Shown in pieces: positions 4,132 through 16,858 of a DNA stretch of 64,000 bases. The translations under genes and the position numbers were made by a program. Within the stretch, counting starts at the first letter, position 1. Every line of letters starts with the position of its first letter. Below the pieces are notes generated by a model. The model was not told the DNA's origin and did no database searches. It saw only the letters and a list, made by a program, of their open reading frames with translations. The stretch is from Oscillospiraceae bacterium (GTDB lineage Bacteria > Bacillota > Clostridia > Oscillospirales > CAG-272), in NCBI GenBank assembly GCA_015064735.1, contig SVRP01000002.1, positions 18,591-82,590 on the forward strand, given 5' to 3'.

Positions 4132-4169
4132 AGGGGCGACTGCAGTTGCAGTTGCCTCTTTCTTTTTTT
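4132..4169 (+). terminator. Rho-independent terminator after argF
   Basis: A 13-base stem (AGGGGCGACTGCA with TGCAGTTGCCTCT, two G-U pairs, very short loop) is followed by a T-rich run TTTCTTTTTTT. It lies 31 bases after the argF stop and closes the arginine operon. Confidence 0.9.
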
Positions 4170-4200: not shown

Positions 4201-4374
4201 CAATGACACAATTTTGTTATAACATAACATTTTTTGTTTATTATGCACATTTTGTCTTTTGCTTTTTTGTCAGACTGAACAATCAAAAGTAATTGACAAA
4301 ATGCTAAAAAAATGGTATAATGCAGTGGGAATAAGTAGTAGTTTTACTTATAACAATTTTTTAAGGAGGAATTT
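4201..4374 (+). promoter_or_regulatory. Promoter block A (sigma-A), twin of 6112-6285
   Basis: TTGACA at 4293-4298 and TATAAT at 4316-4321 are separated by exactly 17 bases, a consensus sigma-A promoter. AAGGAGG at 4363-4369 lies just before the ATG at 4375. The whole block, including about 90 bases upstream of the -35 box (tracts such as TTTGCTTTTTTGT and ATAACATAAC), aligns with the block before the gene at 6286. The upstream AT-rich tracts may bind a shared regulator; that part is inference. Confidence 0.88.
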
Positions 4375-5913
4375 ATGAAAAAAACAGTGAAAATTTTAGC
4401 AATGCTCCTGGTTCTCCTCATGATCGTTCCTGTAATCGTATCATGCGGCAAGGATAAGGGCGGCGCAACCGGGAATACAGATGCAAACTCTGATGTTCTC
4501 GGCGGTGATGACAGTTCATCAAGCGAGATTATTACCGACCAGTACGGTCAGCCTGTTGTTGATGACGGTATTAGAGACACCTTTGACGGTGAAACGGTAA
4601 CGGTTCTCATCAGATCGGCTGAGCAGTATATGAGAGAGTGGACATCTGACACTAAAGAACCCGATACTCTCCAGACAGCTATCTTCAAGCGTAACGCAGA
4701 CGTTCAGACTCAGCTTAACGTAAGACTCAATCTTTATAAGAATACCGAATCTGATGAAAAGATGAACGACCTTATTCTGAGAGATTTCAAGAGCGGAGCA
4801 GGTCAGTTCCATATCATAAGCAACTATGCGGCATACTCCGGAACCATGAACAACATCGGAGGATTTATGAACCTTCGTAACGCTCAGCTTTATAATATGA
4901 ATCTTGACCAGCCTTACTGGAATCAGAATTTCATAAGCGAAGCAGAGTGCTACGATAAGCTCTTCCTCGCGGTTGGTGACGTTAACCTTTCCGTTTTCGA
5001 CCGTTGCCACGTTGTATTCTTTAACAAGGCAAAGGCTACCGAGCGTCTCGGTGACTTCGACCAGCTCTACCAGATGGTTCTTGATAAGGAATGGACGTAC
5101 GACGTCCTTTACGAGATGGTTGCTGATATCCACGAGGATAACGGTACCACCGACGAAAGCGATGACTTCTACGGACTCGCATCGATTAGGGGCTCTGAGT
5201 TCTGCGACGGTTTCCTTTATGCGTTCAATGCAAAATTGACACAGAAGGACGGAGATACCGACAAGAGAGTCCTCGTAAGCGATACCAACTACACCAAGAC
5301 TTCGAATGCATTTAGTAAGGTTGCTGAGTTCTGGGCTACCGACGGAACCATAGTAATCGAGGGCTCCGGAGCAAACTATGATTTCTTTACTCAGGGTCAT
5401 GCGCTCTTTGACATCGACGTAGTTTACCACTATGAATCGGGTCTTGAGAAACTCAAGAACATGGAAGACGGATTCGGTGTTCTTCCTATGCCTATGTATG
5501 ATACCGACCAGGGCGAGTATTACACCGGTGTACAGGATGCTCACAACATAATGGGTGTAGCTTACAATACTACCTTTGATTACGGCTTGATAAGTGCTGT
5601 TATGGAGAAGTTTAACTCTCTCAGCTACTCAAGTGTTCGTCCTCTCTACATAGAGAAGATCGTTAAGGGACAGATCCTTGACAAGAACTCTTCCGAGGTA
5701 TTTACTCTTATTATTAACGGCGCTCGTTGGGACTATGCTGATATTTACCGCGGTGCTTGCGGCTCTATCCGTCAAAATCTTTGGAGAGGACCTCTTGGTA
5801 AGCTTCTCAGCACCCCCGGTTCTACCGACTTTTCTCAGGCATATACGGCAAACTCCACCAGCTTGACCGAAAGCCTTGACGAATTCGATAAATTCATAGA
5901 AAAGGCATTCTGA
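4375..5913 (+). CDS. Extracellular solute-binding lipoprotein, no permease nearby
   Basis: A 512-residue secreted lipoprotein. A lysine-rich start and hydrophobic stretch end in the lipobox VIVSC (Cys24), followed by a Gly/Ser/Asp-rich linker (residues 25-60). The rest resembles family 1 ABC solute-binding proteins, for example an NKAKATERLG segment, a WTYDVLYEMV segment and many aromatic residues that often line sugar sites. Such proteins usually hand sugars or oligosaccharides to a two-subunit permease, but no permease or ATPase gene lies in the window. It has its own consensus promoter and a terminator-like hairpin downstream, so it is probably monocistronic. The ligand is unknown. Sharing a promoter block with the hydrolase at 6286 suggests joint expression. 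The SBP assignment is from general appearance, not from a search. Confidence 0.8.
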   Translation: MKKTVKILAMLLVLLMIVPVIVSCGKDKGGATGNTDANSDVLGGDDSSSSEIITDQYGQPVVDDGIRDTFDGETVTVLIRSAEQYMREWTSDTKEPDTLQTAIFKRNADVQTQLNVRLNLYKNTESDEKMNDLILRDFKSGAGQFHIISNYAAYSGTMNNIGGFMNLRNAQLYNMNLDQPYWNQNFISEAECYDKLFLAVGDVNLSVFDRCHVVFFNKAKATERLGDFDQLYQMVLDKEWTYDVLYEMVADIHEDNGTTDESDDFYGLASIRGSEFCDGFLYAFNAKLTQKDGDTDKRVLVSDTNYTKTSNAFSKVAEFWATDGTIVIEGSGANYDFFTQGHALFDIDVVYHYESGLEKLKNMEDGFGVLPMPMYDTDQGEYYTGVQDAHNIMGVAYNTTFDYGLISAVMEKFNSLSYSSVRPLYIEKIVKGQILDKNSSEVFTLIINGARWDYADIYRGACGSIRQNLWRGPLGKLLSTPGSTDFSQAYTANSTSLTESLDEFDKFIEKAF

Positions 5914-6033
5914 TTTGCCGGAAAAACCAAATTAAAACAAAAACTACTTGTTCGTTTGCCGGAGTGAAATGCAGCTTTTCATAGATGCGTAGTGTACGCA
6001 GAGAAGGGGAAGGCTGTAAACTTTAGCATCAAT
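5914..6033 (+). other. Structured 3' region after the solute-binding protein
   Basis: No coding capacity is seen. The stretch holds two TTTGCCGG copies (near 5914 and 5956), a small hairpin GCGTA-GTG-TACGC, and possible longer-range pairing of GCAGCTTTTC with GAAGGCTG. It does not match any riboswitch class I can recall. It may be mRNA 3' structure or a small RNA; neither is shown. Confidence 0.3.
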
Positions 6034-6080
6034 CAGTGGGTCCAACTGCAATTGCGGTTGGACCCACTGTTCTTATATAT
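6034..6080 (+). terminator. Strong hairpin after the solute-binding protein gene
   Basis: A perfect 13-base stem, CAGTGGGTCCAAC with GTTGGACCCACTG (6034-6046 and 6057-6069), can extend by three pairs around an AATT loop. The downstream tract (TTCTTATATATT) is only moderately T-rich, so termination may be partial. Confidence 0.75.
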
Positions 6081-6111
6081 TCAATATAATTATGTAAGTA
6101 TTTTATCAAGC

Positions 6112-6285
6112 TAATGATACAAATTTGCTATAAAATAACCGTTTTTGGGTATTGTGTATATTTTGACGTTTGCTTTTTTGTTAGACTACACAAATAAAAA
6201 TAATTGACAATTTCCATAAAAAATGATATAATAGAGCGAGAGAAAAGTAGTATTTTTACTCATAATTACTTTTAAGGAGGAATTT
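6112..6285 (+). promoter_or_regulatory. Promoter block B (sigma-A), twin of 4201-4374
   Basis: TTGACA at 6204-6209 and TATAAT at 6227-6232 with a 17-base spacer form a consensus sigma-A promoter. The leader ends with the same AAGGAGGAATTTATG found before the gene at 4375. Upstream tracts such as TTTGCTTTTTTGTTAGACT match block A in order and spacing, so the two blocks look like a duplication. Confidence 0.88.
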
Positions 6286-8115
6286 ATGAAGAAGTCAATT
6301 TTTAAAAGGGTTCTCGTGGCAATGCTTGCAGCTATTATGCTTCTCAGCATAGTTTCCTGTAATAAAAATGCCGCAGAGGAAAACTTGAACACACCCTCGG
6401 GTGATGATACTACGACGACTGCCGATACGTCGGTATATTTTGACATAATAAAAGACGGCAAATGTATTCCCATCCGTTACGGTGCAGGAGCAACCGGCGC
6501 GGAAATTCAGATTGCCAAGGGCGTTGCCGATAAAATAGGCAGAGCAACCGGTGCTGCCGTTGAATTGGATATATCTGTGTCTTACGATGCAAATAAGCTT
6601 GAAATCATTGTCGGACATGGCGCTGCCGCAGATTATCCCGAGGTTGAGCAGGCAATTTCCGAGCTCGGATACGGCGAAGGCCTTGCAAAGATGATCGGCA
6701 ATAAGCTGGTCATAGTAGGTGCCGATACTGAGTCTATCGAGCTCGTAATAGATGAAATGGTCAAGGTATTCATGAATACCAAGGATGAAAACAACAACGT
6801 CAGGGTATCCGATAAATTCATCGTATCTCAGTGCGTTAACGAAATGATCGCCAAGATGCCTTTTTACGACGGATATACTCCTACGGTTGTTGACCGAAAC
6901 GACGGTTGCTATTCCTTTGAATTCAAGACCAACAAGAACGCTTTCGAAAAATACCTTAAGCTCTTGACAGACAGCGGATTTGAGCTTTACGCAAGCAATA
7001 CCATTGATGAAAACGTTTACAATACGTACGTAAACGAGGAAACGGGAATAGTTGCTACGTCGATTTACGCTGAATTTAACGGTCAGTGCAGACTTCTTAT
7101 GGAATGGCTCGACAATACCGAGCTTCCCACAAAGGCTGAGGACAACAAGTATACTCCCGTAGAGGGACTTGAATCCTCGATTACCCAGATAGGACTGTGG
7201 TATGCAAACGGAAATACCCCTCTTATATCTCCTCCTAACGCTGAGGGAAGAGAATACTACAACTACTTCAACGGTATGAGCTATGCTATCCGTCTTGCCG
7301 ACGGAAGCTTCATAGTTGTTGACGGTGGACACGACAATCCTGTTTCGGCGCAGAATCTTTATAATATTCTTAAGGAACAGGCTCCCGACCCCGACAATAT
7401 TGTAATCGCAGCATGGTTTATTTCTCATGACCACAGCGACCATACCGGAATTTTCGGCAATTTCATTGGAAAATACAAGGATGTAGAAATAGAAAGATTT
7501 ATCTACAATTTCCCCGGTGAAGAACTTGGCAACGAGGAAGGGATGGGCAAGAAGCTCAGAAGCCTTATCAAAGGGTTCTACCCCAATGCAAAAATAATTA
7601 AGGCGCATCCCGGACAGGAATTCAATATCCGAAACGCAAAGATAACCATGCTCTACACCATGGACGTATACTTTAAGGATACGCTCAGCGATACCAACAA
7701 CGCAAGCATCGTATGGAAGATGGAGCTTAACGGCAAGACCTTCATGTGTCTTGGCGATTACTCCGAGGGCGGTGATACACTGCTGAATCTTTATTCCGCC
7801 GAAACACTGAAGAGCGATATCGTTCAGGTCGCTCACCACGGTATAAGCGGCATGTCCAATGAAGTGTATGTGAAGATAGCTCCTGAATACGCGCTTTGGC
7901 CTGTTGCAAACTTTGAGCTTGACTGGCCCGAACTCGGAGGACCTATTAAAATAGACGATACGTGGGAGGGCGAGATGAACAAATACATTCTCGATATGCC
8001 CGATGAAAAGGTATTCGTTGCTCGAGATAATGTAAGCATTATCGGTATTAGTAATAGTGGCAATATTACAACAAGCGTATATGAAACTGTAAGCGAATAT
8101 CTTGGTGTAGAATGA
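6286..8115 (+). CDS. Lipoprotein with ComEC-like metallo-beta-lactamase domain
   Basis: A 609-residue lipoprotein with lipobox SIVSC (Cys25) and a short Thr/Asp-rich linker. Residues about 50-170 resemble the small alpha/beta N-terminal domain seen before catalytic domains of alpha-glucuronidases and hexosaminidases (RYGAGATGAEIQIA...LEIIVGHG). A second module follows at about 198-282. Residues about 335-588 form a metallo-beta-lactamase fold with the metal site HDHSDH (residues 381-386), preceded by VVDGGH and followed by MCLGDYSEGGD and VQVAHHG. This order matches the ComEC-type branch, whose known members act in DNA uptake. A lipoprotein acting on the cell surface is unusual. The substrate (phosphodiester, nucleotide or other) is not known. 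The next gene starts 32 bases after its stop and carries the same modules at its C-terminus. Confidence 0.85.
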   Translation: MKKSIFKRVLVAMLAAIMLLSIVSCNKNAAEENLNTPSGDDTTTTADTSVYFDIIKDGKCIPIRYGAGATGAEIQIAKGVADKIGRATGAAVELDISVSYDANKLEIIVGHGAAADYPEVEQAISELGYGEGLAKMIGNKLVIVGADTESIELVIDEMVKVFMNTKDENNNVRVSDKFIVSQCVNEMIAKMPFYDGYTPTVVDRNDGCYSFEFKTNKNAFEKYLKLLTDSGFELYASNTIDENVYNTYVNEETGIVATSIYAEFNGQCRLLMEWLDNTELPTKAEDNKYTPVEGLESSITQIGLWYANGNTPLISPPNAEGREYYNYFNGMSYAIRLADGSFIVVDGGHDNPVSAQNLYNILKEQAPDPDNIVIAAWFISHDHSDHTGIFGNFIGKYKDVEIERFIYNFPGEELGNEEGMGKKLRSLIKGFYPNAKIIKAHPGQEFNIRNAKITMLYTMDVYFKDTLSDTNNASIVWKMELNGKTFMCLGDYSEGGDTLLNLYSAETLKSDIVQVAHHGISGMSNEVYVKIAPEYALWPVANFELDWPELGGPIKIDDTWEGEMNKYILDMPDEKVFVARDNVSIIGISNSGNITTSVYETVSEYLGVE

Positions 8116-8147
8116 ATTGCCGTAAATTGATTTAAGGAGAGACTCTC

Positions 8148-11100
8148 ATGAAAAGAATTTTATCATTGTTTCTTGCAGTGTTAATGGTAATGGCAATCGC
8201 AGTAACGGCGATACCTACAGCCTTCGCAGCAGGAAACACCACAGAAGGTGCTGACGATGCTTATTTCAAAATAGGCGATCAGTACTACACCACACTTAAG
8301 GCTGCCCTTACGGACGCAAAGGACGGCGACACTATCGAGATGCTTAAGAACTTCGATGACAGCACTACGGCAAATCTCGGTACGTATTCCAAAAACCTTA
8401 CCATTAACGGTAACGGATTTACTTACACTGCGAAGAAGAATACAAACGCGTATTGGTTCTACATCAGCGGTGGAAAGACTCTTACTATCAATAATCTTAA
8501 TCTGATAGCACAGAGTGGTGTAGGAATAAACGGAGCAGGTGGAACTATCAACCTCAATGACTGTAACTTCCTTACCACCCACAGAATGGCGATAAGAACC
8601 AGCGGCGCTAAGTACGCTGAGTTCAATCTTAACAACACCGTTCTTGAGATCAACAGCGATACCAACGCAAACGGCGCTCAGGCTGAGCCTCTCGTTTACC
8701 TTGACGGAACCGATTACAACATCCTTAACCTTACCGGTACCTCTAAGCTCATTAGAAGCACCAAGACCACCGGCAACCGTGGTAACTGCTCGATAATCAA
8801 CGTTGTAGGCGGCGCCGGATACGTCGAGATCAATCTTGGCTCTGAGGCTGAAATCGTAATGAATCAGGCAACCGGAGCAACCAACGCACCTATAGGTATT
8901 CACCACAACGCAGCCAACGTAGTTGCGCTCAATCTTGAGAACGGCTCTACCTTCAGAGTTAATTCCAAGATACAGACCGCGCCTGTTTTCCTTAGCGTGG
9001 AAAACAACGGAAAGGGCTATGCTGTAAACGATAAGGGTTGTAACTGGCTCGTTTCGGACGAATCGGCAGCTCCCACTACTACGTACCTGTCCGACCTCAC
9101 CACTTTTGAGGAGCTTGCTACTTCTCCTGAGACAGGTTATACCGCTTACACTACCGTAATTCCCGAAGCAAACAATTCCGACGATATTATCCGCTACTTT
9201 AACGGTACTTCTGTACTGTATACTTATGACCTTAAGGTTGCTATGAGCGGAGCAGTGAACGGCTCCTCTATTATCTTCCTCGGCGACGTTACCCAGAAGT
9301 CTGAAAACGGTATGTGCAGTACTTCCTCAAAGGCTGTTTCTTTCATAGGAAACGGATACACCCTTACGCTTAACGACAACACCGCGGGCGGAACCTTCCC
9401 CTTCCAGACGACAAAGAATACCACTATCGCGAACTTTGAAAAGATAGCTACAACTACCGGTGGACTTCAGGTACATAATGGAACTACCGTAGTAACCAAC
9501 ACCGTGATTGAATCGGGTAACAGAGCGGGCGCTAAGATGTCCGGTGGCGCAGGAACAAACGCTCACCTGATCGTTAAGGATGCTGAAATATGCACCAACG
9601 CAAGCGCGCCTAACACCGAGGCTGTAGTTATATTTGAAAATGCCGGAACATATACGCTTACTCTCAGAGAAGGCGCAGAGCTTCGCAGAAACAACCCCAG
9701 CAAAGGCAACGTTGAAAGTCAGGCATCTGTTCTCTATGCTGCAAATGCGGCCGGAAACTATACCATAAATATGGAGAGCGGCTCCAAGATGGCTACCGCG
9801 CCTATGTCCGGTAATGCGGCATGCTCTGTTATAGCGTTTAACAACACTGCGGGTAAGATGACAATAAACATGGAGGAGGGAGCATATCTCGTTTCCGAAT
9901 CCTCTGTACTTACCACTCTTCATTTCGTATATGCCAATGTTGGAGCAAAGATAAAGCTCAATGCTCCCGCAGACGCGTTCCTCGCAACTTCTGCAACAAC
10001 AACCGTACCGAACTATAACGAGGGTGCTGAGTACGGTGGATACACCGGCACGTTTGCAAAGAAAGAAACCTCTGACGTACCCGGTTACGACCAGTACGTT
10101 CTTACAAGAGGTAAGGCAAGCGCGAATAAGTTTAAGGTTGTAAACGCGTTCGGTGATACCGTATACGTTGATACAATGGCAAAGGTATTTGCGTTCTCCA
10201 CTGCAACCGTAACTATGCTTGAGGACGTGAACGAGAGCGGAAGCGGATATACCGTTGCTGCAGGCAAAAATATAACTCTTGACCTTAACGGTAAGAAGTA
10301 TACCAATACCGCTTCGAGCTATGTTATTGGTTCTATGAAGGGTAACCTTACCATTAAGAACGGTACCTTCAGTGTTAAGAGAGGTATTGTAGTTCAGGCA
10401 GGCGGCGTTCTTAACTTCGACGGCGCAACTGCATCCTCCACAGAAAGACCTCTTATTAAGCTCAACGGAGCAGGAACCACCACTGCTAATATCAACAACT
10501 CTAACCTTAGCATAAATGCAAACGGCGAGAACCTTATTCTTATAGAGCAAGGAACCGACGGCTTCCTTAACGTAACCGGCAACTCTGTTCTATCTCATGT
10601 TGGCGCGGCTGCAGGTCGTCCTAATTGTTCGGTAATCACCGTTCAGCAGAATAATGTTACAGACGCGGACGTTGACGCGACCATCACAATCGGAGCGGGC
10701 GCAAAGCTTCACTCCGCATACGCTTTGGACAACAGTAACAAGACCAACGCGGGAGCTTGTATTCTTGATATGACCTACGGTAAGATTGATATAATTCTTG
10801 AAAAGGATTCTATCCTTGCAATCGACCGTAAGTTTGCGGCAGAGACGTACTTCATCTGGGAATCCAGAACTAGCGGTTCTTCTACTAACGCAGATACCGG
10901 TGTTACAACCACCAAGAACGGTAAGACGACTATTACCGACAAGGGAGCTATTTACTCCGCAAATGCAACCGCATTGGCTAACGGTGTACATTTCCCCGCA
11001 ATCGCAAAGAGCGGTGAAACCCAGATGGGCTTCCTTGGCAGCGACGGTAAGTTTTATCACACAGGTAAGAACGTTGCTACAGCAGAGGAAACCGTAACCT

Positions 11101-13289
11101 TCTCGCCCATATACTATGGCACAGACGACTTTGGATTGGTATACGGTGCATCACTCCGTACGATCAAGAACGAGATTGGAATACGTTTTTCCGGATATTT
11201 TTCGGATTTACTTAAGAATACTTTAGGAAACAACGTTACGTTTGGAATGGCAATAGCTCCCGGAAAAACTACAGCCGATGACCCTGTTGCAAATACCTCG
11301 AATCTCTTCGTAAAGAGTACTAAAAATCAAACAAAACGTACCATTGCAGGAAAAACATACGAAAATGTATATCATGTAGCAGTAATTTATCCCTATAATT
11401 TTGAGACCCTAAACGAGGCTACAAAGACTAATGCATATTTTCTTTCCCTTGCAACCCGTGCGTATTTTGAGATAACCTATGCTGACGGATCAACTGTAAA
11501 GTATTACACAACGCTTACATCGGATAATATTCGTTGTATGGCACAGATCGCTCAGAATCTCGATGACACAGGAGAAACTAACGACGTAATAACAGACATT
11601 GTAAATACAATCCAAACGACAAACGTTGAAAAGTATTATAACTATTTAATCAAAAACGGCACCGGTGTGGGGGTTGTATATCCTTCAGGTGCATCTGATG
11701 AAGTAATGGCTGCCGCAAACAAGATTGCTGCGAAGCTTGGTGTAACTGCAAAGGTTGCAGGTACATACAATGCAAACACAGTTGAGATAGTGGTGGGCAA
11801 TGTAAACTATACTGAGGTTACGTCTCTTACTTCGGCACTCGGATATTTTGAGGGTGCGGTTAAAGTATCGGGTAAGAAGGTAGTCGTTGCCGGATATGAT
11901 GATACATGTATTGCTCTTGCTGCAGATAAGCTCATTGCAAACATTTCTAAGAAGACTCTTTACAATGGAGACGTAATTATAAGCAAGACCTACGAAGAGC
12001 ATGTTTCTTCAAATACAACGGTATCCGAGCTTCCCAGAATTTCCGGATATACTCTTGATATGGTAGATACCGCAGACAACTGTTATATGCTTGAGCTTGG
12101 AACTTCATCTTCTGCTACAAGTGGAAAGTTCAGTACGTTCAAAATGGCTCTTGAAAATGACGGATATAGCCTTTACGCGTATAAGACTATAGAAAAGAAC
12201 AGTTACTACACCTACACTAACGGTAAGGTTATTGTAACCTTGTTGTCCTTTACTCCTTCATCAAGTACTCAGTATACACACAGGCTTCTTGTTGAACCTT
12301 ATGAAAAGGGAAAGCTTCCTACTAAGGTTGCGGACAATAAGTATACTCCCATAAGCGGACTTGAATCTACTATAACTCAGGTAGGTTTGTGGTATGCAAG
12401 TCCCAGCAAGCCCCTTATAGATCCTCCCAATAGTGAAGGAAGAGAATTCTACAACTACTTTAACGGAATGAGCTATGTGATTCGTCTTGCTGATGGAAGC
12501 TTTATTGTTGTGGACGGTGGACACAATAACCCCGTTTCTATACAGAATCTTTACGATATTCTTAAGAAACAGGCACCCAATCCTGACAATATTGTGGTAG
12601 CAGCATGGTTCTTATCTCATAATCATGATGACCATATCGGATTTTTCTCCGGATTTGCAAGTAAGTTTAATGATATTACCGTTGAAAGATTTGTCTATAA
12701 TTTCCCTGCGGGATCAGCAAGTAAAAATTTCACCGACAATGTAATCAAGTACTATCCCGAAGCATCTATAATCAAGGCGCACCCCGGACAGGAATTCAAT
12801 ATCCGAAACGCAAAGATAACTATGCTCTATACAGCAGATGTGTATACCAAAGAAACGATGACAGATACGAATAACGCGTCTATTGTATGGAAGATGGAGC
12901 TTAACGGTAAGACCTTTATGTGTCTTGGTGATTACTCTGAAAGCGGTGATACTTTGATGAAACTTTATACTGCAACTACATTGAAGAGCGATATCGTACA
13001 GGTTGCTCACCACGGTATAAGCGGTATGTCAAATGACGTGTATGTGAAGATAGCTCCCGAATACGCATTCTGGCCGGTAGCTAACTTCCAACTTGATTGG
13101 AACGGTATTGGCGGAAATAAACCCATCGACCTTACTCAGGGTTCAAAGTATACCATGAACAAATACATTCTTGATATGCCCGATGAAAAGGTATTTGTTG
13201 CACGTGATGATGTAGCCGTAATGACTATCAGCGGTGGAAAAGTAACCACTAATGTCTACGATACTGTTTCTGCGTACGTTAATAATTAA
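8148..13289 (+). CDS. Giant secreted beta-helix protein with C-terminal metallo-hydrolase
   Basis: 1713 residues with a cleavable signal peptide ending in AFA-AG. Three successive right-handed beta-helix-like modules (about 30-345, 346-655, 656-985) are rich in short Asn/Thr/Gly repeats such as LTINNLNL and start with motifs like DGDTIEMLKNF. A linker domain at about 990-1160 (GIRFSGYFSD) recurs at the end of the beta-helix protein at 13733. Residues about 1165-1285 and 1290-1390 repeat the two accessory modules of the gene at 6286. A ComEC-like metallo-beta-lactamase domain follows (about 1437-1687) with metal site HNHDDH at 1491-1496 and VQVAHHG. The metal-binding His and Asp residues are all kept. 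The beta-helix part probably binds or presents at a polysaccharide or surface; this is inference. The RBS AAGGAGA at 8134-8140 fixes the start. No LPXTG motif or S-layer domain is seen, so the attachment mode is unclear. Confidence 0.85.
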   Translation: MKRILSLFLAVLMVMAIAVTAIPTAFAAGNTTEGADDAYFKIGDQYYTTLKAALTDAKDGDTIEMLKNFDDSTTANLGTYSKNLTINGNGFTYTAKKNTNAYWFYISGGKTLTINNLNLIAQSGVGINGAGGTINLNDCNFLTTHRMAIRTSGAKYAEFNLNNTVLEINSDTNANGAQAEPLVYLDGTDYNILNLTGTSKLIRSTKTTGNRGNCSIINVVGGAGYVEINLGSEAEIVMNQATGATNAPIGIHHNAANVVALNLENGSTFRVNSKIQTAPVFLSVENNGKGYAVNDKGCNWLVSDESAAPTTTYLSDLTTFEELATSPETGYTAYTTVIPEANNSDDIIRYFNGTSVLYTYDLKVAMSGAVNGSSIIFLGDVTQKSENGMCSTSSKAVSFIGNGYTLTLNDNTAGGTFPFQTTKNTTIANFEKIATTTGGLQVHNGTTVVTNTVIESGNRAGAKMSGGAGTNAHLIVKDAEICTNASAPNTEAVVIFENAGTYTLTLREGAELRRNNPSKGNVESQASVLYAANAAGNYTINMESGSKMATAPMSGNAACSVIAFNNTAGKMTINMEEGAYLVSESSVLTTLHFVYANVGAKIKLNAPADAFLATSATTTVPNYNEGAEYGGYTGTFAKKETSDVPGYDQYVLTRGKASANKFKVVNAFGDTVYVDTMAKVFAFSTATVTMLEDVNESGSGYTVAAGKNITLDLNGKKYTNTASSYVIGSMKGNLTIKNGTFSVKRGIVVQAGGVLNFDGATASSTERPLIKLNGAGTTTANINNSNLSINANGENLILIEQGTDGFLNVTGNSVLSHVGAAAGRPNCSVITVQQNNVTDADVDATITIGAGAKLHSAYALDNSNKTNAGACILDMTYGKIDIILEKDSILAIDRKFAAETYFIWESRTSGSSTNADTGVTTTKNGKTTITDKGAIYSANATALANGVHFPAIAKSGETQMGFLGSDGKFYHTGKNVATAEETVTFSPIYYGTDDFGLVYGASLRTIKNEIGIRFSGYFSDLLKNTLGNNVTFGMAIAPGKTTADDPVANTSNLFVKSTKNQTKRTIAGKTYENVYHVAVIYPYNFETLNEATKTNAYFLSLATRAYFEITYADGSTVKYYTTLTSDNIRCMAQIAQNLDDTGETNDVITDIVNTIQTTNVEKYYNYLIKNGTGVGVVYPSGASDEVMAAANKIAAKLGVTAKVAGTYNANTVEIVVGNVNYTEVTSLTSALGYFEGAVKVSGKKVVVAGYDDTCIALAADKLIANISKKTLYNGDVIISKTYEEHVSSNTTVSELPRISGYTLDMVDTADNCYMLELGTSSSATSGKFSTFKMALENDGYSLYAYKTIEKNSYYTYTNGKVIVTLLSFTPSSSTQYTHRLLVEPYEKGKLPTKVADNKYTPISGLESTITQVGLWYASPSKPLIDPPNSEGREFYNYFNGMSYVIRLADGSFIVVDGGHNNPVSIQNLYDILKKQAPNPDNIVVAAWFLSHNHDDHIGFFSGFASKFNDITVERFVYNFPAGSASKNFTDNVIKYYPEASIIKAHPGQEFNIRNAKITMLYTADVYTKETMTDTNNASIVWKMELNGKTFMCLGDYSESGDTLMKLYTATTLKSDIVQVAHHGISGMSNDVYVKIAPEYAFWPVANFQLDWNGIGGNKPIDLTQGSKYTMNKYILDMPDEKVFVARDDVAVMTISGGKVTTNVYDTVSAYVNN

Positions 13290-13364
13290 AACTCGTAAGT
13301 AGTTCATAGAAATCATTAAAGTAGTAATTTTGACACATTTGCAACAAATTAAGGCGGTATCAAT

Positions 13365-13646
13365 ATGAAAAAGATATTGGTTTGTTTACTTATCCTTTGC
13401 TTGGTTTCGACAATCGTTTGCGCGTGCGAAAGCAGAGATAATACTGAAACTAATAATGACGGGTCAATCACAGTAGATGGCGATTCCAATTCTTCCGATG
13501 ACGGTGGAACAAATGATTCTGATACGTATGGAGAATCTAACAGCTCCTCTGACGACGGAAGCTCCGATTCCTCGGATACTGAAGCGGTTGATTATGATGA
13601 TACTGCAACCGCGCTTCCAAATTGGTTTGAAAAAACCGAAGCATAA
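13365..13646 (+). CDS. Small acidic lipoprotein, copy 1
   Basis: 93 residues: a lipoprotein signal peptide ending in IVCAC (Cys21), then almost only a Ser/Asp/Asn/Gly-rich flexible tail, and a short C-terminal end LPNWFEKTEA. No globular domain is visible. It is a paralogue of the gene at 16252; the coding bases for the signal peptide are nearly identical over about 27 nt, so the duplication is recent. It follows the giant beta-helix gene by 75 bases with RBS AAGGCGG. It could be a surface spacer or anchor or a peptide precursor; nothing in the sequence decides this. Confidence 0.75.
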   Translation: MKKILVCLLILCLVSTIVCACESRDNTETNNDGSITVDGDSNSSDDGGTNDSDTYGESNSSSDDGSSDSSDTEAVDYDDTATALPNWFEKTEA

Positions 13647-13659
13647 TAATTTTTAAAGA

Positions 13660-13698
13660 AAATTGCTTGTATTTGTGTAATACAAGTGCAAGCAATTT
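13660..13698 (+). terminator. Hairpin between small lipoprotein and beta-helix gene
   Basis: AAATTGCTTG pairs with CAAGCAATTT around an inner stem (TTGTATT with AATACAA). Only a weak T tract follows (CTAATAAAAAC), so this may be an attenuator or an RNA-processing or stability element rather than a full terminator. Confidence 0.5.
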
Positions 13699-13732
13699 CT
13701 AATAAAAACAAAAAGAAAGGAACTTATAGCTT

Positions 13733-16231
13733 ATGAAAAAGTATTTATCACTCTTTCTTGCTATCGTAATGGTTTTAACCATTGCAATCCCCGTATTTGC
13801 GGCTGACGAGAATAGCCCGTTCAAAATAGGAGATATCTATTATGACACTCTTCTCGAAGCTGTAGCTGCGGCAGAAGACGGCGACACCATCGAAATGCTC
13901 AAGGATTACACGATGGACGGTGTAACCCAGAACCAGATTAAAATCACAAAGAGCATTACCATTGATGGAGGTAACCACACGTTAACCTTCAATGCCAGCG
14001 CGGCTAACGTATTCCCAATATTGGTTGATGCTGCCGGAAAAGTAGTAACAATTCAGAACTTTGCGGAAATTACGTCTTCCGGTGGCGGTATTTCGGTTGG
14101 AAACGGTACTCTTAACCTTAACGGCGTTACCGTAACAGGTAAGGGACGTGCTGCTGTTAAAACTCAGAATGGTAGCGCTGCAAAGGCTATCAACGTTGAA
14201 AATTCTACTATCAGAATGGCGCTTGACGCAGGTAAGACCGAGGCTACCATGATCCTCTCCGGAGGTCAGGCATCTACTCTTACTCTCGGAAACGGCGCAG
14301 TTGTTGAAAAGGCAAGTAAGGCTAATAGCGCGACAATGTCTCAGTCCTCGGTTATCTACTTCCTGGATAACGGTGCTCACTCTATCGTGATGAACTCCGG
14401 CTCCAAGATAATCGCAAAGCAGGCAGTTGACCACAACGCAACTACCGTTATCGGACTTGCCGATGCTAAAGGCGCAAACGCTATTACGATAAATGAAGGC
14501 GCGCATTTTGTCGTAGAAACTTCGATTCCTACCGTATATTTCCTTAGCTCCAACGTTGGTGGTAATACGACTATTACCGCTCATGATAATGCCTTCCTTG
14601 TTAAAGAAGACCTGACCCCCACTCTTCCCGGTTATACCGCGGATATGACACACGGTGGAACGGCATACAACTGGGAGGAGAGCACTTCTTCCGTTGCCGG
14701 ATATAAGGCTTACAAGATGGTTGAAAATACCAACGTTGATTATAACTTTGAAATTATAAAAGGCGAGGATTCTGCTAATTTCGCGGGTTCATTGAAGGAC
14801 GCGCTTAATCTCTCTACCGACGGTTCAACAATCAAGTTCCTTAAGGACTACACAAACGCTGATGTAGGAATAACCCTTTCCGGTAAGAGCATTACGGTTG
14901 ACCTTAACAACTTTAAGCTCGGAAACTCCAACGGCAGCAACTATTTTATTACTTCCCTTAAGTCCGGTCTTACCTTTAAGAACGGTACTGTTGAGACCAT
15001 TCGCGGAATTGTTGTTCAGGATGGCGGACATCTTGCGTTTGAAAACGTAACCGCTACTGCTATTCAAAACGGTTCTAGTGAAAGACCTATGGTTAAGCTC
15101 AGTGGAAAGGGCGCAACCAGGCTTACTGTAAACAATGCTACTCTTGAATTGAAGGGCACCAACGGTGAATCCTTGATTCTTTGCGAGCATGGAACTACCG
15201 CTACTATTAATGTTACCGGAAACTCTGTAATTAAGTACAGCGGTAACGTTAAGGGTAATGACCAAAACCACGTTGCGATAGCTGTTCAGAAGGGTAACAC
15301 CGACGGTACTAGCCTTACACTCAATGTAGGTGCAGGCTCCAGCCTTGTTGCTGCTCATATTGGCAATGCAGACAGAGCGGGAAAGATAGCTGCTATTATT
15401 GCTGACCAGACTAACGGAACAATTACCGTTAACCTCGAAGCAGGCGCAACTCTTAAGGCTGACCGTACTCTCGGTGCAGACAACGTAACTAAGACCGCGT
15501 TCATTAATCAGGTTGGTTCTTTGGGCCTTGAGGGTGAAAACTTTGTTAATGACAACGGAGCAAACTGGGTAATCAGCGCTGACGTTGCAAAGCAGGGAAT
15601 TGCTCTTCCCGCAAACGTATTTGGTTACAAGATAGGCGACAATATCGTTAATCTTGCAGAAGGAAACGTATACAAGAATGAAGCAGCTACCGAGGCTGTA
15701 ACAATTTCTGCTATATTCTACTCCTTCAAGCCCGAAATGATCAAGGGTGCAGCTATGAGACTTGAGCTTCCTTTCGGTCTCAGATTCGGCGCAACTATCA
15801 GTGCTGATGAATTTGAAGCGATAAAAGTTCTTGATCCTAACGCTGAGGTTGGATTTGTAGTTGCTAAGAAGGGCGACGCAGGCTCTAAATTTGATACTGC
15901 CACTATGATGGAAAGTAAATATAAGTTCATGCCTGCTACTACCGTTGTAAACGCTGATGGTACCGTAACCTTTGAGACTAACGTATATATTGGCGAGGAT
16001 AGCGTAATTACTTCCGCTGATAAGTCCGGCTTCAAGACAAACGTTGCTGCAAAGGCGTACGTTAAGGCTACCATCGGAGGTCAGGAAGTATACTACTTTG
16101 CGGATTACAGCATGGCTGAAAACAGCCGTTCCTTGTACAACGTTGCTCAGTCCTACGTGGCAGACACTGTAGACGGTTCTACCGAAAACATTGTTGCTAA
16201 CTACATCATCGCTGTTAGCGAAGCAAAATAA
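13733..16231 (+). CDS. Secreted beta-helix protein, paralogue lacking the hydrolase
   Basis: 832 residues with a signal peptide ending VFA-AD. Two beta-helix-like modules (about 30-335 and 336-655) start with motifs close to those of the 8148 product (FKIGDIYYDTL, DGDTIEMLKDY) and carry short repeats such as LNLNGVTV. The C-terminal domain (about 656-832, LPFGLRFGATIS) is homologous to the linker domain of the 8148 product, but the gene stops before any metallo-beta-lactamase module. It therefore looks like the non-catalytic partner of the giant protein. RBS GAAAGGA lies 11 bases before the ATG. A second small acidic lipoprotein gene follows within 20 bases. The function is unknown; surface adhesion or glycan binding is plausible for such helices. 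Confidence 0.82.
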   Translation: MKKYLSLFLAIVMVLTIAIPVFAADENSPFKIGDIYYDTLLEAVAAAEDGDTIEMLKDYTMDGVTQNQIKITKSITIDGGNHTLTFNASAANVFPILVDAAGKVVTIQNFAEITSSGGGISVGNGTLNLNGVTVTGKGRAAVKTQNGSAAKAINVENSTIRMALDAGKTEATMILSGGQASTLTLGNGAVVEKASKANSATMSQSSVIYFLDNGAHSIVMNSGSKIIAKQAVDHNATTVIGLADAKGANAITINEGAHFVVETSIPTVYFLSSNVGGNTTITAHDNAFLVKEDLTPTLPGYTADMTHGGTAYNWEESTSSVAGYKAYKMVENTNVDYNFEIIKGEDSANFAGSLKDALNLSTDGSTIKFLKDYTNADVGITLSGKSITVDLNNFKLGNSNGSNYFITSLKSGLTFKNGTVETIRGIVVQDGGHLAFENVTATAIQNGSSERPMVKLSGKGATRLTVNNATLELKGTNGESLILCEHGTTATINVTGNSVIKYSGNVKGNDQNHVAIAVQKGNTDGTSLTLNVGAGSSLVAAHIGNADRAGKIAAIIADQTNGTITVNLEAGATLKADRTLGADNVTKTAFINQVGSLGLEGENFVNDNGANWVISADVAKQGIALPANVFGYKIGDNIVNLAEGNVYKNEAATEAVTISAIFYSFKPEMIKGAAMRLELPFGLRFGATISADEFEAIKVLDPNAEVGFVVAKKGDAGSKFDTATMMESKYKFMPATTVVNADGTVTFETNVYIGEDSVITSADKSGFKTNVAAKAYVKATIGGQEVYYFADYSMAENSRSLYNVAQSYVADTVDGSTENIVANYIIAVSEAK

Positions 16232-16251
16232 GAAAGGTTAGGTAATTGAAT

Positions 16252-16548
16252 ATGAAAAAATTATTAGCTTGTTTACTTATCCTTTGCTTGGTTTCTGCAA
16301 TCATATGCGCATGCGGCAAAAAGGATAATACCGAAACTAATAACGATGGTACAACTACATTGGCAGACGATTCTTCCAATATCGGTACTGATGACTCTGA
16401 TTCCGTTAGCGGAGATGATTCTTCTGACCTCGGCGGAGATGATTCTTCCAGCTCGGAAGAGTCCTCTGAGAAGCCTATTCCCGATATCTCCAAGGAGCCC
16501 GTTTCTCCTAACCCCGATGAGGACGGAAAGTGGTCTAACCCCTATTAA
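16252..16548 (+). CDS. Small acidic lipoprotein, copy 2
   Basis: 98 residues from the ATG at 16252: signal peptide with lipobox IICAC (Cys21), then a Ser/Asp/Gly-rich tail and a proline-rich end (VSPNPDEDGKWSNPY). The ORF track begins six bases earlier at a TTG. That TTG has better spacing to AAAGG, but the paralogue at 13365 begins at the MKK, so I prefer the ATG. It repeats the order beta-helix gene then small lipoprotein seen at 8148/13365, suggesting the two genes work as a pair. No domain is recognised. Confidence 0.72.
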   Translation: MKKLLACLLILCLVSAIICACGKKDNTETNNDGTTTLADDSSNIGTDDSDSVSGDDSSDLGGDDSSSSEESSEKPIPDISKEPVSPNPDEDGKWSNPY

Positions 16549-16591: not shown

Positions 16592-16636
16592 AGCCGCTCT
16601 TATTATCGTTCTTCGATGGTAAGAGCGGCTTTTGTC
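16592..16636 (+). terminator. Terminator closing the secreted-protein block
   Basis: AGCCGCTCTTA pairs with TAAGAGCGGCT around a short loop and is followed by TTTTGTCGTATTTTT. A smaller hairpin (TACGCTT-TT-AAGCGTA) lies just before it. The remainder of 16549-16701 holds only AT-rich sequence without further features. Confidence 0.88.
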
Positions 16637-16730: not shown

Positions 16731-16746
16731 TATTTTGTAGTTTTAT

Positions 16747-16826
16747 GGGCGCTTTACAACCGGCGGATTTTGTGGAAATAACCACGGTGGGAGTTGAGCG
16801 CAATAACGCCGACCGCCTGGGCAAAC
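16747..16826 (+). ncRNA. ZTP (pfl) riboswitch aptamer
   Basis: The sequence carries the ZTP-class signature: the outer stem pairs GCGCT and CAAC with GTTG and AGCGC, an inner hairpin GTGG-AAATAA-CCAC, a GGGAG stretch, then GCCGACCGCCTGGGCA. GGCGG near 16762 can pair with CCGCC near 16814, the expected pseudoknot. This class binds ZMP/ZTP (AICAR phosphates), which rise when 10-formyl-tetrahydrofolate is short, and it turns on purine or folate genes. The call is from memory of the consensus; a covariance search would settle it. Confidence 0.87.
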
Positions 16827-16858
16827 CTGTTTGTGTAGGATAGGTTTGCCTATATTTT
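16819..16858 (+). terminator. Riboswitch expression-platform terminator
   Basis: GGCAAACCT (16819-16827) pairs with AGGTTTGCC (16842-16850), followed by TATATTTTGTTT. The 5' arm begins inside the conserved GGGCA of the aptamer, so ligand binding and terminator formation exclude each other. Ligand would therefore favour read-through into purE. Confidence 0.83.

Follow-up and report, generated by a model that had tools for sequence, protein, structure and literature searches.

A putative cell-surface glycan-processing cassette built on secreted metallo-beta-lactamase and beta-helix proteins in a herbivore-gut Oscillospiraceae bacterium

Six secreted proteins are encoded in order on the forward strand between positions 4375 and 16548 of the window (the whole stretch of 64,000 nucleotides that was analysed), and the explanation that best fits them is a lineage-expanded system for the cleavage of glycan phosphodiesters and capture of the products at the cell surface, with a substrate that we infer. 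That the block is a cell-surface glycan-processing cassette in which P0002 and P0003 act as di-metal glycan phosphodiesterases has, in our judgement, an even chance of being right, and the stripping of phosphate-linked decorations, phosphocholine for example, from glycans, rather than the handling of DNA, is the most likely role of the cassette. P0002 and P0003 are placed in this way because a glycan-type scaffold carrying swapped, decoration-removing catalytic domains recurs beside a binding lipoprotein, and because both characterised reference enzymes, Pce and GlcNAc-PDase, cleave sugar-linked phosphocholine. The lipid-anchored P0002 and the beta-helix-borne P0003 would be di-metal metallo-beta-lactamase (MBL) phosphodiesterases of the Pce/ComEC branch, removing or cutting phosphodiester-linked groups on dietary, host or microbial glycans, the likeliest being phosphocholine, phosphoethanolamine or phosphoglycerol on amino sugars. 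The GH20/GH84-type N-terminal domain (NTD) and the beta-helices would grip the glycan, and the solute-binding protein (SBP) lipoprotein P0001 would capture the sugars or head groups thus released. Gene order, folds, metal ligands, recurrence and domain swapping are observed; phosphodiesterase chemistry, throughout the family, is what we infer, and the exact substrate and the SBP ligand are guesses.

All six open reading frames expected from the original prediction, five secreted proteins and a solute-binding lipoprotein, were found in place, each with a signal or lipoprotein leader (Table 1). The block is flanked by argJBDF and purE/purM, with argG, argH and argC (assigned by their appearance only) farther upstream. 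Promoter consensus matches and terminator-like hairpins divide it into two transcription units, one running from P1 through the SBP gene to the strong hairpin, the other from P2 through the genes of the MBL lipoprotein, the beta-helix-MBL protein, a small lipoprotein, the beta-helix protein and a further small lipoprotein to the closing hairpin. The promoters are predictions from consensus matches and sequence identity: the P1 and P2 regions share 79% identity across 178 nt, and the sole further copy of this leader in the genome lies 5' of a copy of P0002 on contig C24. An RNA leader for the block was considered and discarded, as the Rfam search rendered just the ZMP/ZTP riboswitch of the pur operon (RF01750, 56 bits; window 16746-16829, + strand), which is located just 3' of the block and 5' of purE and is an ordinary control element of that operon.

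Table 1. Features of the block, with positions in the window
Feature	Position	Strand	Remarks
Terminator-like hairpin	4132..4159	+	3' of argF; upstream limit of the block
Promoter P1 (predicted)	4293..4321	+	TTGACA-17-TATAAT, 12/12 sigma-70, TG-extended
P0001, SBP-like lipoprotein, 512 aa	4375..5913	+	family profile, weak match to maltose/maltodextrin-binding proteins
Terminator-like hairpin, strong	6034..6069	+	separates the two transcription units
Promoter P2 (predicted)	6204..6232	+	TTGACA-17-TATAAT, 12/12 sigma-70
P0002, MBL lipoprotein, 609 aa	6286..8115	+	lipobox Cys25
P0002 NTD	6421..6855	+	resembles the non-catalytic domain at the N-terminus of GH84/GH115/GH20 enzymes
P0002 MBL catalytic domain	7240..8112	+	profile and Foldseek matches
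P0002 motif II HDHSDH, residues 381-386	7426..7443	+	sequence
P0003, secreted beta-helix + C-terminal domain (CTD) + NTD + MBL fusion, 1713 aa	8148..13289	+	
P0003 beta-helix region, about three units	8235..11132	+	homologous to P0005; putative fold, after the P0005 model
P0003 CTD module common to P0005	11136..11633	+	residues 997-1162, E 1.2e-57 with a profile built with the P0003 sequence included
P0003 MBL domain	12423..13286	+	shares 76% identity with that of P0002
P0003 motif II HNHDDH, residues 1491-1496	12618..12635	+	
P0004, acidic lipoprotein, 93 aa	13365..13646	+	no recognised domain
P0005, secreted beta-helix protein, 832 aa	13733..16231	+	two solenoid units + CTD, no hydrolase domain
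P0006, acidic lipoprotein, 98 aa	16252..16548	+	P0004 paralogue
Terminator-like hairpin	16592..16630	+	closes the block

The MBL fold expected of the hydrolases was recovered with an AlphaFold2 model of P0002 (pLDDT 86.6, 40-sequence alignment), whose C-terminal half matched in Foldseek the nuclease domain of ComEC (9ic4; E 1.9e-13, TM 0.75 on target) and the pneumococcal teichoic acid phosphorylcholine esterase Pce/CbpE (2bib and 1wra; E 5.7e-12 to 8e-11), the MBL arylsulfatase 8gyg being a distant match. A comparison of the MBL profile with solved structures rendered the same two relatives (ComEC, E 1.5e-9; Pce, E 2e-8), with an alignment that in Pce begins at motif II and runs through to the core's end (motif V) and in ComEC covers the second half only; in both sequence and fold, the family stands no farther from ComEC than from Pce and is perhaps slightly nearer to it. 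The features of the superfamily are all present, namely the alpha-beta/beta-alpha fold, HxHxDH, the bridging Asp and the His of motif V. Residues ~46-190 of P0002 have the fold of GH84/GH115/GH20-type N-terminal domains (Foldseek matches to 6pv4, 7pxq, 8pxt and 4h04, 5e-5 to 1e-3), and Pfam Glyco_hydro_20b matches sister proteins weakly, below cut-off. Such a domain normally precedes a TIM-barrel glycosidase, whereas here it precedes an MBL, Exo_endo_phos (EEP) or GDSL domain. A solitary near-twin of P0002 (L031:7750-9579; G000:C24:43749-45578) is 97% identical and has the promoter region as well, and at the DNA level the identity is 96% across 1.9 kb; its C-terminal stretch FQLDWNGIGGNKPIDLT is closer to P0003 than to P0002, which, from the sequences, suggests gene conversion among paralogues.

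The C-terminal part of P0003 consists of a P0002-like NTD and MBL domain. The predicted beta-helix fold held up at moderate confidence, since the AlphaFold2 model of P0005, a parallel beta solenoid with a lower pLDDT than that of P0002 (69.7, six-sequence alignment), matched PL6 lyases and the pectate lyase 1ee6. These matches support a right-handed beta-helix for P0005 and, through homology, for the N-terminal region of P0003. The likeness of P0005 to these proteins is one of predicted fold, and its Pfam match to the Pectate_lyase_5 'adhesive domain' is near threshold but below cut-off. In the MBL tree, fusions of CTD and MBL domain occupy several distinct positions. Another secreted beta-helix/CTD protein of the source genome, of 1628 aa (L044:4301-9187, G000:C31), carries SASA and GDSL domains and a weak CBM26 match, and an MBL relative with a laminin-G lectin domain was found at L169. 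Small acidic lipoproteins rich in Asp, Ser and Thr (64-105 aa) and without a domain recur in such clusters, as P0004 and P0006 in the window and at L198:3744-3959, L128:9352-9582, L159:16288-16521, L088:5060-5377 and L194:7416-7676.

The arrangement of genes is found again in relatives, which runs counter to the refuting condition set in the original prediction, homologues that stand singly with no shared neighbourhood. At L107 (RGIG4259) the order SBP, MBL lipoprotein, beta-helix protein and small lipoprotein is repeated, with a 107-aa lipoprotein at the position equivalent to P0006; L110 has SBP, MBL and CTD protein, and L109 MBL and CTD protein. P0001 itself had no Pfam match, and its family profile matched maltose/maltodextrin-binding proteins weakly (best 6ffl, E 0.0035). 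A first SBP profile drifted onto common lipoprotein signal peptides, and counts were therefore restricted to full-length SBP matches. In eight genomes, 32 of 99 SBPs adjoin an MBL or NTD-hydrolase gene (within 700 bp, same strand), with ~0.7 expected from a simple density estimate, a count inflated on its MBL side because the presence of MBL loci was already known when the genomes were picked. Fourteen SBPs are next to NTD-hydrolases without an MBL domain, a class that was not selected for, and in 14/14 of these cases the SBP lies directly 5' of the sister hydrolase. A 969-aa lipoprotein of the source genome (L186:384-3293, G000:C9; contig end nearby) carries leucine-rich repeats of the BspA type ahead of a C-terminal SBP part that shares 88% identity with P0001. 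Many MBL genes are solitary, next to housekeeping genes, or in tandem arrays, with four to six NTD-MBL lipoproteins at L033:2561-10985 (G000:C3), L091 and L113.

The sister proteins with the same NTD carry an EEP domain in nine of the ten scanned (one of the nine below the curated cut-off), and the source genome also has a GDSL esterase with this NTD in front. GlcNAc-PDase, a secreted EEP enzyme of gut Clostridia, is a proven GlcNAc-6-phosphocholine/-phosphoethanolamine phosphodiesterase (PMC10704324); it shares its domain type with the sister proteins, its EEP fold differs from MBL, and most members of its family are single EEP domains. GH43, GH36, GH127, GH31, GH65 and CBM9 appear among the neighbours of MBL genes and are absent from the listed families of distant genes; Pfam counts of near versus distant neighbours showed no single dominant family, with carbohydrate genes scattered near the MBLs. 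At L192 (G009:C78), genes for an SBP, a CTD protein, EEP, NTD-EEP, heparinase-like, GDPD and GDSL-like proteins lie together, several phosphodiesterase folds in one glycan-type cluster. At L195 (G009:C22), an SBP, a CTD protein and two EEP genes are followed by a putative KDPG aldolase and KDG kinase (by eye), which hints at an acidic sugar substrate.

The source genome encodes about 18 MBL domains of this family. Within the genus, most of the species sampled have at least one copy and many have 5-20 (range 0 to about 22), and other genera of the order have few. Where relatives are named, they are uncultured Clostridia that came from the colon, caecum, rectum or faeces of roe deer, sheep, goat, water deer, yak and horse, or in some cases from rumen or omasum.

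The metal ligands of both hydrolase domains are intact, as had been claimed, with the motif II sequences of Table 1 followed by N...GD...HHG. Asn471, Asp491, His517 and His518 are invariant across the 143 MBL domains of the source genome and relatives, and His441 and Asn471 are candidates for the metal ligand of motif III. The N-x-x-S, GD and HHG motifs align with those of the C-terminal nuclease domain of ComEC/Rec2 (9ic4). In ComEC, however, motif II is HxDxDH, with Asp instead of the second His; this Asp ligand is required for Mn-dependent nuclease activity, for which the Ser of HHGS also matters (PMC8579336, PMC12455585), and the active site is strongly positive (PMC5031224). The family departs at both positions, since motif II is HxHxDH in 142/143 domains and position 520, that of the substrate-contacting Ser, is Tyr, Ile, Leu, Trp, Phe, Met or Ala in 115/143 and Ser in at most 6/143. 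HxHxDH is a generic MBL motif too, and so argues against ComEC more than for Pce. Moreover, 94% of the family domains are acidic, the medians being -11 for net charge and 5.2 for pI, the family is devoid of an OB fold, the Competence membrane domain (PF03772) is absent from P0002 and P0003, and an NCBIfam search gave sub-threshold ComEC matches only. A separate ComEC is encoded at C26:215858 (L219:736-2997, G000:C26), with a degenerate C-terminal domain that has no recognisable HxHxDH/HxDxDH or HHGS. Participation in a DNA-uptake system was rejected, given this separate ComEC and since no competence genes turned up next to the family members. The designation 'ComEC-like' of the original prediction thus holds for the fold, with 9ic4 as the best match, and does not extend to function, because motif II and the HHGS Ser differ, the domains are acidic and the genome has its own ComEC.

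Alternatively, the MBL domains might be extracellular nucleases that cut DNA or RNA for nutrition or uptake, much like the nuclease domain of ComEC. ComEC is the best profile and fold match, sister EEP domains can be nucleases too, and the degenerate ComEC of the genome might, in principle, leave a need for a nuclease outside the cell. We regard this as distinctly unlikely in view of the two altered active-site positions, the acidic domains and the occurrence of ~18 paralogues with carbohydrate-type accessory domains and no competence genes seen beside them. The leaning of the original prediction towards nucleic acids is accordingly not supported, Pce being an equally close secreted relative and the partner genes pointing to glycans. 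The original prediction was right in placing the proteins outside the cell and in seeing a role for them apart from DNA uptake.

Pce is likewise a secreted HxHxDH MBL, and the homology spans the catalytic core; it strips phosphocholine off teichoic acid and, partially, off nematode N-glycans (PMC7614267). The MBL proteins of the block differ from it (~13% identity in the fold alignment) in having no choline-binding repeats, and a GH20-type NTD, a middle domain and a lipid anchor or beta-helix instead. The native role of Pce, together with lipid anchoring and the near-threshold 'adhesive domain' match of P0005, would fit enzymes that trim teichoic or lipoteichoic acid of the cell that makes them, with the beta-helices as adhesins, but SBP pairing and CAZyme neighbours indicate foraging and a copy number so variable within one genus is unlike a housekeeping wall function, so that envelope remodelling seems very improbable. 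An MBL-fold esterase, lactonase or sulfatase stripping acyl, sulfate or lactone groups from plant or host glycans is suggested by the parallel fusion of the scaffold to SASA and GDSL esterases and by the distant match to 8gyg; since both nearest solved relatives are phosphodiesterases and the commonest swapped domain, EEP, has a phosphodiesterase fold, we hold it to be unlikely, if less so than a nuclease. Jointly, these three alternatives fall a little short of an even chance.

The glycan phosphodiesterase reading is favoured by the match of the MBL profile and model to Pce and ComEC, a motif II of the Pce type, the glycosidase-type NTD, the EEP swap, SBP adjacency, CAZyme neighbours, the acidity of the domains (acidity is common in secreted proteins, which weakens this argument) and the repeated fusion of the beta-helix/CTD scaffold to MBL and, elsewhere in the genome, to a GDSL domain, a sugar esterase of the SASA type and a weakly matching CBM26. 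Against it, ComEC is at least as close as Pce, many MBL genes are solitary, next to housekeeping genes or in tandem arrays, just one of the four SBPs of the source genome adjoins an MBL gene, the block has no permease gene, and we know of no activity for any family member. The phosphodiester-linked polymers named as an alternative substrate in the original prediction come close to the explanation preferred here.

MBL, beta-helix, GH20-type NTD and SBP are known kinds. In the open-access literature we found no description of NTD-MBL or beta-helix-MBL architectures, of the SBP pairing or of an MBL/EEP swap on one scaffold. It is conceivable, and we propose it tentatively as somewhat less than an even prospect, that hindgut Clostridia possess modular surface glycan-phosphodiesterase loci, with a glycosidase-type NTD scaffold and interchangeable MBL/EEP catalytic domains, each accompanied by an SBP and large beta-helix proteins. 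Such loci, numbering up to about 20 in a genome, would be the 'zwitterion-stripping' equivalent, in Gram-positive bacteria, of polysaccharide utilisation loci. To our knowledge, few enzymes take phosphocholine or phosphoethanolamine off glycans, and these secreted MBL proteins, a large family still uncharacterised, may carry out such removal, or a related reaction, in herbivore guts. Family members are probably often labelled competence proteins by homology; if the proposal is true, a misleading 'ComEC' label would be corrected and candidate enzymes for glycan analysis would be gained, and the family would offer a direct test of how gut Clostridia process phosphodiester-decorated glycans.
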